NCBI GenBank assembly: GCA_030386875.1
Contig: CM059556.1
Location: 37,054,964-37,118,963, forward strand
DNA from: Morinoia aosen
Taxonomy: Eukaryota > Arthropoda > Malacostraca > Amphipoda > Talitridae
Reading direction: 5' to 3'
Length of the DNA stretch: 64,000 nucleotides
The notes below the pieces were generated by a model, which saw only the letters and a program-made list of their open reading frames with translations, ran no database searches and was not told where the DNA came from. Position numbers and translations under genes: made by a program. Of the stretch, positions 30,301 to 39,300 are shown one piece after another. The stretch's first letter is position 1. Each line of letters starts with the position of its first letter.

Positions 30301-33300
30301 TTTGAACAAATATCAACCAAAAGTTTTAACAGGTTAAATTAGCATAAGTTTTTCTATGGAGGGGTATTGAAAAATGTTTAGTTTAAAGGTTATAAAAAAG
30401 AATGTATCATTGAGTTCATGAAAAAGAAACTTTGAATAAGTGTATTTCAATAGAATAAAGAGTAGAAGGCCAGGCTTCACAATAGGAATTAAAAACTGCA
30501 CCCATCTGTTTTGCTGCAAACTCAGAGGGATCAACAAATTAAACATAAAACCCTTGCAAAGACACCAGGAGAATTGGCAATACTTGCACAAGCATCAATG
30601 ATCCTGCTGATAAACACTTCTTTGGCTGGAACTGGTGTTTTAGACACATAATTCCTGGGATATCTTCATGGGTAGAAATCTACATGCATCATGGCAGGAA
30701 ACCTGGGCGATCCAAAATAGGTTCACTTGCAGATAAGATCCTGGTCATCTAATAATCATTTAACAGCAATTATAAAGTGGGCAAATGAACCATCATGTTG
30801 GAACCATAAGATCCACCCACAAGAGAAACATCTTCTAGCAACCCAGACAGTACTTCCCCAAGGAATGCTTAATAATTTTGTCTAGCAAGTCTTTCTGACA
30901 TGATGTAGGGGCTAAGGGGCTGATGAGATAGTTGTCAATATATTTACATAATTGTACATATATTTATAGAGAGTCTAACTTGGTGACTGCTTCCCCGGGT
31001 ACCAAGCGGATTGATGTGGTACCACAAATGTGGGTTAAGTAATATTCCCTTTTACATGCACGGTAAATGATTGAATTAAATTGTGTTTGTGTATGAATGA
31101 ACAAATTAGGTTTTTCAGACATTTAGAGAATTTTGTGGAATGTATTGATTTGTTTTTTTAAAATGATCATTTTTTTCTCTTGTTTCAGAACTCATGGACT
31201 TTTCAAGTCTAAAACTTTTGCAATAAATGCAATGTTTGTTTTTACTCTGATTCTTCTTTTTATTGTACGAGTAAGATTCTCAACGAATTGAAAAATAATT
31301 GTACTCCAATAGTTCAAGTCTTTGCAATTTTAATTAACAAAAATTTATTGATACTGATCTATAGAGCTAATTTTTCATGTTTACCTGGTAGGAACTTGGG
31401 GTTGAGGTATGTTCAAAAGATTCTGAAACATCCTGGATGAATGGTTCTCTCTATTACACGTATCTTTTGAGTTTATGCCAACAAAAAATGCTTGATAATA
31501 TGCACTTTGAGCATACTTTCTTAGTGGTTAAATTAAATTAAATTATTAGTTAAATTATTTGAAATAACTTTGCTAAATATATCCCTCTACAACACAACCT
31601 TTCACAACCTAAACATACAACACACAGAGCCTATATCTACTATTGTTTAAATTATTAAACTGAAATTAAACTGAAACAAGCTTCATAGTAAATTTGCTTA
31701 TTCTTAGATCTATTGATGTACTAAAGCTAAACCCATGATATGATCATTCAATTGCATAAAACCATGATCATTCAATAACACTAAGCCATGATCATTCAAT
31801 AACACTAAGTAATCATGATCATTCAATTACATTAAACCATGATGATTATTCAATGACATTAAACATGATGATCATTCAATTACATTAAACCATGATGATC
31901 ATTCAATTACATTAAACCATGATGATTATTCAGTGACATTAAACATGATGATCATTCAATTACATTAAACCATGATGATCATTCAATTACATTAAACCAT
32001 GATGATCATTCAATGACATTAAATCATGATGATCATTCAATGACATTAAATCATGATGATCATTCAATGACATTAAATCATGATGATCATTCATTGACAT
32101 TAAACCATGATGATCATTCAATGATATTAAATCATGATGATCATTCAATGACATTAAACCATGATGATCATTCAATGACATTAAACCATGATGATTATTC
32201 AGTGACATTAAACATGATCATTCAATGACATTAAACCATGATGATCATTCAATGACATTAAACCATGATGATCATTCAATGACATTAAACCATGATGATC
32301 ATTCAATGACATTAAATCATGATGATCATTCAATTACATTAAACCATGATGATCATTCAATGACAGTAAACCATGATGATCATTCAATGACATTAAATCA
32401 TGATGATCATTCAATGACATTAAATCATGATGATCATTCAATGACATTAAATCATGATGATCATTCAATTACATTAAACCATGATGATCATTCAATGACA
32501 TTAAACCATGATGATCATTCAATGACATTAAACCATGATGATCATTCAATGACATTAAACCATGATGATCATTCAATGACATTAAACCATGATGATCATT
32601 CAATGACATTAAATCATGATGATCATTCAATTACATTAAACCATGATGATCATTCAATGACATTAAACCATGATGATCATTCAATGACATTAAACCATGA
32701 TGATCATTCAATGACATTAAACCATGATGATCATTCAATGACATTAAACCATGATGATCATTCAATGACATTAAACCATGATGATCATTCAATGACATTA
32801 AACCATGATGATCATTCAATGACATTAAACCATGATGATCATTCAATGACATTAAACCATGATGATCATTCAATGACATTAAATCATGATGATCATTCAA
32901 TGACATTAAACCAAAAACACGAGTGAGATAAACACTCGTTCAATAAGCGTAACTCACAGGTCGACAGGAGCACCAGTGCCTGGCATGCCCTCAAACATGG
33001 CACACCGAAGCACCTCGGGAGCCATGTAGTTTGGCGTGCCACTCACATCTGCGCGCACCACCCCAAGTGCAGACGAATAAAACGGAATTGTAACACAAGT
33101 TGCATCCCCAATCAGACTGCATGCTGCTCTACCTTGGGCTGTGAGACTTAATCTCACAATACATAAAAAAATAATAAGGTGCACAGCAGGAGCTTTAGAA
33201 CTGCGATTCTTAGGAATGTTGGCAAAACAAAACAATTTATTACAAGAGGATGGAAGTGCATATGAAAAATAGACATTGAAGTGACTGATCACCATACATA

Positions 33301-36300: not shown

Positions 36301-39300
36301 ACTATCCTGGTTTGAACCCAATAATTAAGCTCCTAACAAAATCAGAAAATACATTGAAACTCACCTTTAAATACAGATGATGATTAAACAAGGTATGTAC
36401 ATTTTTCACACTGGCACATAGCCCAGAACAGAAAATCATGCATATATCACGTACCTGGTATAGGAAACACTGTTCTGTTTCTGACTCAGTTCTGTCCGTA
36501 ACTTGCTTATGTTAATTAGGCATCAATACCGTGAAACACAACTCAAGAAAGCTAACATGATGATCCCAATTGCAACGTGATGTCTGGTTGCAACTTACTA
36601 ATAGTAATTGGGCATTATAACCATGTAGCACCTCGTATGTTAACTGAGCCAATATCCCCAGTTGCAACATGATGTCTGGTTGCAACCGACACATGGTACT
36701 AAGATATGATTACCATGAAAAAACCTCACAAACTGACTGATCCAATACATTGCAACATGTCTGATTGCAACTGATACATGGTAATAAGGTATAATTACCA
36801 TAAAGAACCTCACAAACCGACTGACCCAATACGTTGCAACATGTCTGATTGCAACTGACACATGGTATATGATTGCCATACAGTGCCTCTCAAGCAAACC
36901 AACATTGAGTTTCTAAATGAAACCCAATTATTAGATGCAGTTCTCTGAGCACTTCCCTGACATTGTCAGGGCTGCACTACTCACAGGTCAACCTGCTCTC
37001 CATAGCCTGGGGCTCCTTCAATCATGTTCGCTCTCAGCAGCTCAGGCGCCAGGTAGCCAGGAGTGCCGCACAGTTCTGCATGTGGGGATTCGCAAGGATC
37101 GAAGCGGCAAAAAAAGCATGAAGAAGAGAAGAAATGTTCAGTGAGATTGAAAAATTGGAAATAAAAATATTAAGGAATTGAACAGAAAGAAAACAAAATA
37201 CCTATTGTAGAGAAGTGCATGAAAACAAGCCCAGCAATTAGTAATGTGTAAAAAAGAATTTGAAGAAACAGGGTGTGTAAAAAAGAAAATTAAATTAAAC
37301 ACATCAAGCAGTAAATAAAAAATCAGTCAAACATCCATTAAACTTAACAGAAAAAATGCCAAGCATGCCCACAAAAAATAAAAATAAATGAGGAAATGCC
37401 AAAGAAATACCAGAAAATAAGAAAATATGTAATCTAGGTGAAAAATAGTAGATTCGTATCTTTGAAGGAAAAAATAATACAAACTGGAAGAAGATGGAAA
37501 ATTAAAAGCTTTGAGCCACAGAGAGCAAGCAAAAGTTTAACAAAGAGAAGAACATGAGAGAGCTAAGAGCAATGAAGGGTAGATAATCACACACTCTTGA
37601 GTTCACCTACAGACTTGAATGAGCACTTAAAATCAACCAAAATAGAAGTAGCAATGACCACAATCACTTCAGAGAAGCTAAAAAAATACAAAAATAACTT
37701 GAAATTCAGTTCAAGTCAGACAAAGGGAATGAAAATTGTTGAATGAGAAAGAAATTAATTTCATTCAATGATAGAAACATGAAAGCAACATGGTGTTAAA
37801 CTCAAGACATAAAAATTAAATAGAACATAATATAAAAAAGAATTTGGATATCAACTGAATAAAATTTAGTACACAGAAAAAAATTAAGTTTAATTCAATT
37901 AAAAAGTAAACTAGAAAATAGCAAAAGAAAAGTTAATTTCAGTTGGAAAATCTGTTGAGAGAAAATAAAAAATGAAATATGAAAAAATTTGAGCAGAGAA
38001 CACACATGATGCAATAGAGCAATGCAGGAGCTGAAGTGAAGCCTAAAAACATTTCTTAACTGTAAGGATCAAAATATAAAAGTAAAAAATAATAAAAGAT
38101 TGGGAAGTAAAATTGTGAGAACATAATGGAACAAAAAAGTAGCAAGCAGAAGTAAACAAAAAAATAGAGCCAGATTAAAGTATTAAGAAAGAAAGAAAGC
38201 ACAGAGTAAAACAGAAGAATGAAATAGGAAGTATACTGAAGCTGGAGAGTCAAAGGGAACTCAGGAAAGCTGAAGGCAGACTCAGGAAAGCTGAAGGCAG
38301 ACTCAGGAAAGCGGAAGGCAGACTCAGGAAAGCGGAAGGCAGACTCAGGAAAGCGGAAGGCAGACTCAGGAAAGCGGAAGGCAGACTCAGGAAAGCGGAA
38401 GGCAGACTCAGGAAAAGTGAAGGCAACATCAGGTATGTCGAAGGCAGAAGCAGTCATAAAAGCATCCTTCATATCACTAATATTATCTCCCTCAATCCAT
38501 AACACTATCTTTGGTTAAATGAACCAGCAAAGCACCTTTGACTATCAGCATCAAGGCTATAGCACAGTTAAATTTCCTCTTGAAGCAACAGATTTGACCA
38601 AGAAGCTAGCATATCAACTAACTGAGAGGGAGCACCAAAGGGAAGTTCCATTGTGCGTGTCTTATTAGTACAATTCACATTAAATACAATGACATTAGGC
38701 AACTAATACTCATTTCAAAAATACCATCCTTTCCAAAAATAAATGATGAAAAATCTTATTGGATCTAAAAAGAGCTAAAATAATTATGATTAACAGAGTA
38801 TGAACAGAAAAAATAGACGCTTCTTGAACATAGAAAGGGGAGAGAAATGAAGTGAAGACCAAAGTAAGCTAAAACAGACCTACAATGTGCGCAGCTGTTG
38901 AGAAGGCAATCTTCATAATCCTAATGAATTTAGATGCGTCAGATTACATCAGCATTAATCCACTGACAGCATAGAGTTTTAGTCACCACCACTGAAGGTA
39001 TTGTTCATTACATATACTACGGGATAATCCTTGTGGTTATCGACAGAAGATCTTGCATCACCAGTGACACATCAAAACCTTACAGCAGTGGTATTCATTG
39101 CACGTCTTGCGATGACAATTCAGGGCTCTTAAAAAATATGTAAATTAATTAATTTATAATTAATATAACATACGCTAACTTGCAGTAGCTGCGGCTCTCT
39201 CAATGAATGCGTTCAACCGAAGTGGCTCTCTTGCAAAAATTAGTGAACACTGCTCTACATGCATACTTGTCAATTTATATCATGCTGTACCAACCGTAAA

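Follow-up and report, generated by a model that had tools for sequence, protein, structure and literature searches.

A candidate pair of homologous mutually exclusive exons encoding the activation segment of phosphorylase kinase gamma in the amphipod Morinoia aosen

INTRODUCTION

Homologous mutually exclusive exons are a well-known kind of exon pair, and the closest described cases include several protein kinases. Here we describe a pair of this kind in the gene for phosphorylase kinase gamma (PhKγ) of the amphipod Morinoia aosen, where its position, in the activation segment, is unusual and informative. Phosphorylase kinase is the textbook enzyme that switches on glycogen breakdown, and PhKγ, its catalytic part, is commonly regarded as a single invariant kinase that is active by itself and held back by its partners. 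The gene lies on the minus strand of a 64,000-nucleotide stretch of contig CM059556.1 (assembly GCA_030386875.1, positions 37,054,964 to 37,118,963), which we call the window; its coordinates are used throughout. The fifth coding position of the gene is present in two versions, exons 5a and 5b.

In the kinases JNK1 and JNK2 (MAPK8, MAPK9), the alternative exons 6a and 6b lie after the activation segment. They resemble the present pair in being alternative exons of a Ser/Thr kinase that are tied to altered substrate binding (PMC8699841), but JNK belongs to another kinase family, and the PhKγ swap takes in the loop acid, the P+1 loop and the APE motif. The tandemly duplicated, mutually exclusive kinase exons of FYN (FynB and FynT) likewise show isoform-specific binding and tissue-dependent use (PMC9741552), although the region exchanged there is the linker between the SH2 and kinase domains together with part of the N-terminal kinase domain, and not the activation segment. 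An AG-free stretch ahead of an exclusive exon, which we also find here, is known from alpha-tropomyosin and from exons 4a and 4b of OGDH (PMC1431707, PMC7969005). In those genes, however, a branch point close to the upstream donor enforces exclusion, whereas 5a and 5b are 3.9 kb apart.

Closer in family are the mammalian genes PHKG1 and PHKG2, whose kinase domain is colinear with that of the M. aosen protein; for the PHKG1 chain the same is true of the regulatory domain. In mammals, the Val/Leu variants at position 183 and the Ser/Gly variants at position 188 are split over two genes, whereas in M. aosen a single gene has the variation in its two versions of one exon, which also differ at 182, 184, 190 and 206-209. 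The Drosophila PhKγ gene also has mutually exclusive exons according to its FlyBase annotation, as described in 2011 (PMC3228551). In that paper, however, no other annotated X-chromosome gene is reported with an exclusive pair that is dissimilar in length and sequence, and so the Drosophila exons are not the homologous 5a/5b pair. The initial annotation of this DNA knew of no described case in PhKγ; the Drosophila exons are an earlier mention of exclusive exons in this gene, though not of this pair. We found no account of a homologous pair of activation-segment exons in PhKγ in the open-access literature, and the main texts of four papers on exclusive exons (PMC3923563, PMC7954323, PMC5740500 and PMC9741552) contain none of the terms 'phosphorylase', 'PhK' and 'PHKG'. 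The acceptor mutation described in pig PHKG1 (PMC4207639) is another event.

RESULTS AND DISCUSSION

Two versions of exon 5

Exon 5b (36985..37075) is the family-like version and exon 5a (32958..33048) the divergent one. Both were placed by their borders and frame, 5a also by its matches in the PDB, and both are identical in a second copy of the locus described below. Each is 91 nt long, is entered in phase 1 and left in phase 2, and is bounded by an AG acceptor and a GTGAGT donor. They have in common an upstream partner, exon 4 (44034..44197), and a downstream partner, exon 6 (21365..21394). Exons 1-4 total 535 nt, so that exon 5 begins inside codon 179. With either 5a or 5b alone, the spliced gene encodes an intact full-length protein; joining both leads to a stop after 227 residues, and skipping both to a stop after 202. 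The two versions are identical at 17 of 30 residues, or 18 of 31 if the common split Leu codon is counted.

Our exon modelling thus reproduced the coordinates, lengths, phases, AG/GT borders and intact frames given in the initial annotation, its four proposed junctions (44034-37075, 44034-33048, 36985-21394 and 32958-21394), its count of 17 in 30 and its numbering of the acidic residue as E179 or D179. It had also concluded that an exclusive choice is forced. This is so at the level of productive protein, where both exons or neither give an early stop, although the frame by itself does not prevent the spliceosome from joining both. In length, splice sites, frame and homologous sequence, the pair has the features by which homologous mutually exclusive exons are defined (in the wording of PMC3228551), and joint inclusion is unproductive in the predicted protein. 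A search of 84 kb, comprising the window and 10 kb on each side, revealed no third version of exon 5 and no duplicate of any other coding exon.

The bare geometry of such an exon is not rare: the 15.6-kb intron containing 5a has 49 windows of the form AG-91-GT, 10 of them open in the required frame. The similarity between 5a and 5b is, however, far beyond chance. When the 5b protein was used as a query against this intron, 5a scored 97, while the best scores in 12 shuffled versions (in 3-nt blocks) were between 8 and 19; over the 84 kb, the tblastn E value for the similarity is 1.8e-9. Searching the PDB with 5a plus one flanking Trp gave five distinct sequences at E <= 0.001, all five named phosphorylase kinase, from human and rabbit. 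Because 5a matches solely PhKγ in the PDB at this threshold, it is a PhKγ exon and no stray piece of another kinase, and the match places in it the whole 31-residue segment typical of PhKγ, which starts at the loop acid, includes APE and reaches helix F. We consider it likely, with a probability of roughly 0.8, that 5a and 5b are a real pair of homologous mutually exclusive exons which arose by an old tandem duplication, 5b being the default and 5a the regulated version.

Changes in the activation segment

In rabbit PhKγ, the position that holds a phosphorylated threonine in PKA is occupied by Glu182. By pairing with Arg148 it makes the kinase domain active without phosphorylation, and this glutamate is described as highly conserved (PMC10978961). 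The loop acid is Glu in 5b and the conservative but shorter Asp in 5a. In rabbit numbering, which is used from here on, 5a stands apart from both 5b and the three mammalian segments used for comparison at positions 182, 184, 190 and 206 (Glu182 to Asp, Cys184 to Ser, Leu190 to Met and Tyr206 to Thr). Together with Ala-Pro at 208-209, the last of these changes rebuilds the loop between APE and helix F. The initial annotation was right to treat the exons as homologous PhKγ alternatives, but the change that it saw in the P+1 loop is milder than claimed, as Val183 of 5a is the residue found in mammalian PHKG1.

The loss of the conserved partner of Arg148 (PMC10978961) to a shorter acid, and the alteration of Tyr206 and its neighbours, would suit a reading in which the 5a isoform is produced but has little or no kinase activity, serving as a competitor or scaffold inside the phosphorylase kinase complex. 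We regard this as unlikely. The HRD and DFG motifs lie in the shared exon 4, GTP-x-Y-x-APE is retained in both versions, and the Pfam kinase score barely differs between the isoforms (265.3 versus 267.9 bits). With these motifs and the activation-loop acid all retained, both isoforms are predicted to be active kinases, although this is less certain than the existence of the pair.

How the isoforms might differ can be judged from what is known of the enzyme. In the human holoenzyme, the autoinhibitory domain touches helix D and the F-G loop, and a pseudosubstrate loop fills the -3 and -2 sites (PMC10978961). None of the residues named there for these contacts lies within exon 5, so calcium control is expected to be largely kept. 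A 2009 paper found that both the holoenzyme and the kinase subunit have a Km for glycogen phosphorylase far below the one measured for the kinase subunit with a peptide; it suggested that even the kinase subunit has remote docking sites (PMC2639635). We infer that basal rate, substrate preference or the docking of glycogen phosphorylase should differ between the isoforms. More tentatively, one gene could give rise to two holoenzymes, in one of which a 5a kinase, with its retuned substrate surface and shorter built-in acid, would act on targets other than glycogen phosphorylase or have another basal activity, in particular tissues or stages; we give this reading somewhat less than even odds.

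Probable constraint on exon 5a

Exon 5a could be a relic, a duplicate that has dropped out of splicing and is now in decay. None of the other nine acceptors scored is as weak as its own, and 5a resembles the three mammalian segments less (15-17 of 31 residues identical) than does 5b (17-22 of 31). Against this stand its intact frame, AG, GTGAGT and family motif, as well as the pattern of its differences. The two exons differ at 34 of 93 positions, with 11, 7 and 16 differences at codon positions 1, 2 and 3, respectively. By the NG86 method dN is 0.355 and dS 1.258, giving a pairwise dN/dS of about 0.28 with many synonymous changes.

Neutral drift was simulated with a simple mutation model, taking present-day 5b as the ancestor and carrying 20,000 copies to the same distance. 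As many as 7,901 of the copies were open by chance, so an open frame is weak evidence and the retained residues are the strong part. Only 14 of the copies were both open and identical to 5b at 18 or more of 31 residues; none retained an open [DE]xxGTPxYxAPExL motif. On the neutral simulation and dN/dS we rejected a relic exon as the leading explanation and hold it to be improbable. Furthermore, at position 197, 5a has Cys, as do the three mammalian segments, whereas 5b has Ala, which makes a recent decaying copy of today's 5b unlikely. We infer from these comparisons an old duplication, after which both exons have been under constraint.

Splice signals

Splice sites were rated by a simple score based on base frequencies, for ten acceptors. 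The initial annotation had called the splice sites of both exons good. This is true of the donors, which score 2.8 and 2.8, but not of the 5a acceptor, at -2.9 the weakest of the ten; that of 5b scores 0.7.

A scan for gaps between AG dinucleotides showed that both exons are preceded by an AG-free zone, of 124 nt plus the acceptor AG before 5b (37076..37201, 74% pyrimidine) and of 66 nt plus the acceptor AG before 5a (33049..33116, 56% pyrimidine). These are the two longest among the ten acceptors, the other eight having 8-31 nt. The pyrimidine content of 74% upstream of 5b extends over about 120 nt and includes a 15-nt pyrimidine run, compared with 45-60% at the other nine acceptors. In the second copy of the locus the lengths of both zones are unchanged; there are two substitutions across the 130 nt upstream of 5b, and upstream of 5a there are none. 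A survey of human genes linked AG-free zones of at least 100 nt to more frequent alternative splicing; where such cases have been characterised, the stretch from the distant branch point to the exon contains regulatory elements (PMC1431707). The zones lend moderate support to regulated splicing. As the 5a acceptor is the weaker and the zone of 5b is long, pyrimidine-rich and free of AG, 5b is probably the default version.

The weak acceptor, and the early stops that result from both exons or neither, would also be expected if 5a were a poison exon or off-switch, such that joint or skipped splicing sets the level of PhKγ through decaying transcripts and the 5a protein is minor. A pure decay exon would have no cause to retain 18 of 31 residues together with length, phase and the kinase motif, and 5a by itself encodes a full-length protein. 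We think this explanation very improbable.

Two further ways of enforcing exclusion were considered and ruled out: steric exclusion by branch-point proximity, by the 3.9 kb between the exons, and U2/U12 incompatibility, by the sequence of the sites, as both donors are GTGAGT and both acceptors end in CAG, the common U2 type. Base pairing between introns was also searched for. Between positions 31500 and 44200 there are 17 inverted pairs of 14-29 nt with 72-93% pairing, a count without shuffle control; within the interval from exon 4 to exon 6, one perfect 13-mer pairing lies close to 5b, and 5a has none nearby. No strong complementary boxes of the docker-selector type emerged from these scans, though intron pairing may still play a part.

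The second copy of the locus

The locus has a colinear copy 354 kb further on (region 37404001-37484000), and a DNA search of the 1.99-Gb assembly found each version of exon 5 at two places. Over 1,282 coding nucleotides, counting both versions of exon 5, the copies differ once, in exon 8; there is no difference in 5a or 5b. Colinear blocks of more than 400 nt are about 93.7-98.9% identical, and a 4,134-nt alignment of 32664-36783, which takes in 5a and most of the intron between 5b and 5a, has 67 mismatches. The copy has probably arisen by recent duplication or is an allele left unmerged, and being near-identical it has limited value as evidence of conservation. Several other kinase matches in the genome are also paired, with equal or near-equal scores on one contig, a sign that the assembly contains alleles that were not merged or stretches that were recently duplicated. 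The presence of such duplicated stretches is what might favour 5a being an artefact, inserted from a paralogue or by a misjoin, an explanation that we give almost no weight, as 5a DNA occurs at just two places, each time between exons 5b and 6, and no further PhKγ gene was seen among the candidates scored.

In that search, made with the 5a isoform protein and with 105 of 273 first-look candidates scored (a lower bound), no second PhKγ gene appeared beyond the locus and its copy; the other kinase matches reached up to 55% identity. Pattern searches of prokaryote and viral collections returned 12 matches and 2 matches, respectively, none of them a relative, as expected. Elsewhere in the assembly, an arginine kinase frame (298 of its 324 residues used) has among its best single-domain PDB matches, in third place, a chain named Pro c 2.0101, which is a crayfish allergen name and a weak pointer to a crustacean; four stretches at contig ends, one of them N at both ends, were uninformative as to telomere repeats.

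A 27-bp tandem array at 31740-32913 (43.9 units) starts 44 nt past the 5a donor. The length of the array might affect the splicing of 5a.

A model for the exon pair and its implications

We propose that exon 5 was duplicated in tandem long ago, in what is the sole PhKγ gene found besides the near-identical copy, and that this led to two exons that would be used singly. The acceptors would compete, with 5b favoured; its AG-free zone would suit a distant branch point and the binding of a repressor, and a repressor or a choice of branch point would shift use to 5a. Wrong combinations would be removed through the frame shift and decay. The 5a isoform would have a basal activity, a substrate preference or a mode of docking of its own, on an unchanged calmodulin and autoinhibitory tail.

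Several observations weigh against this model. The weakness of the 5a acceptor is one, although that of exon 9 is almost as weak (-2.2). The ranking of the AG-free zones rests on ten acceptors, among which a given two come out on top by chance once in 45, and long AG-free gaps are not very rare here: weighted by size, about 4% (at least 124 nt) and 7% (at least 70 nt). No long complementary intron boxes of the Dscam type were found between the introns. With regard to the second copy, 91 nt without a difference at about 1.6% divergence proves little, and the copy may be the other allele; the flank of 5a is not conserved, as the 27-bp array has 43.9 units in one copy and 7.8 in the other.

If the pair is used as we propose, a swap of the activation segment against a constant background of HRD, DFG and calmodulin-binding tail would be a natural controlled test of how this segment sets substrate choice and basal activity. 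A lineage with an apparently single PhKγ gene would then diversify its kinase by splicing, as a counterpart to the mammalian pair of genes, PHKG1 and PHKG2.

Structure of the gene and its surroundings

The minus strand of the window, which has a G+C content of 36%, contains one complete PhKγ gene with ten coding positions and 11 exons, position five being doubled. Each spliced form is 1,191 nt long including the stop codon and encodes 396 amino acids. Exons were located by tblastn with a rabbit PHKG1 sequence as query, and their borders were set from splice sites and phase. Upstream of the exon 5 pair lie the coding part of exon 1, from the ATG (51370..51490), exon 2 (49141..49269), exon 3 (47777..47897) and exon 4, with HRD and DFG. 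Downstream, exon 6 was placed by splice sites and phase, and is followed by exon 7 (20315..20421) and exon 8 (19025..19122). Exon 9 (9331..9492) encodes the C-terminal regulatory region and exon 10, whose coding part runs to the stop codon (6144..6311), the autoinhibitory region; both have a PDB match in addition.

Residues 7-373 of the 5a isoform align colinearly with residues 5-377 of 8jfk_C, a chain of human PHKG1, at an E value of 2.5e-137; the match takes in the C-terminal regulatory region as well as the kinase domain. NCBIfam gave 17 matches to this isoform, none at its cut-off, reflecting generic kinase similarity. Judged by its sequence, the gene is a genuine PhKγ gene. Its product may have the kinase activity on glycogen phosphorylase, and the assembly with alpha, beta and calmodulin, that are expected of the family.

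Exon 6, at 30 nt, is the size of a microexon; it is the obligatory partner of 5a or 5b, and might be co-regulated with them. The intron before it holds a large 19/16-bp minisatellite (26034-27950), and the sequence aligned with it in the second copy is shorter. Upstream of the PhKγ gene, two open frames on the minus strand (61036-62787 and 57442-58260) resemble, by a motif, non-LTR reverse transcriptase.

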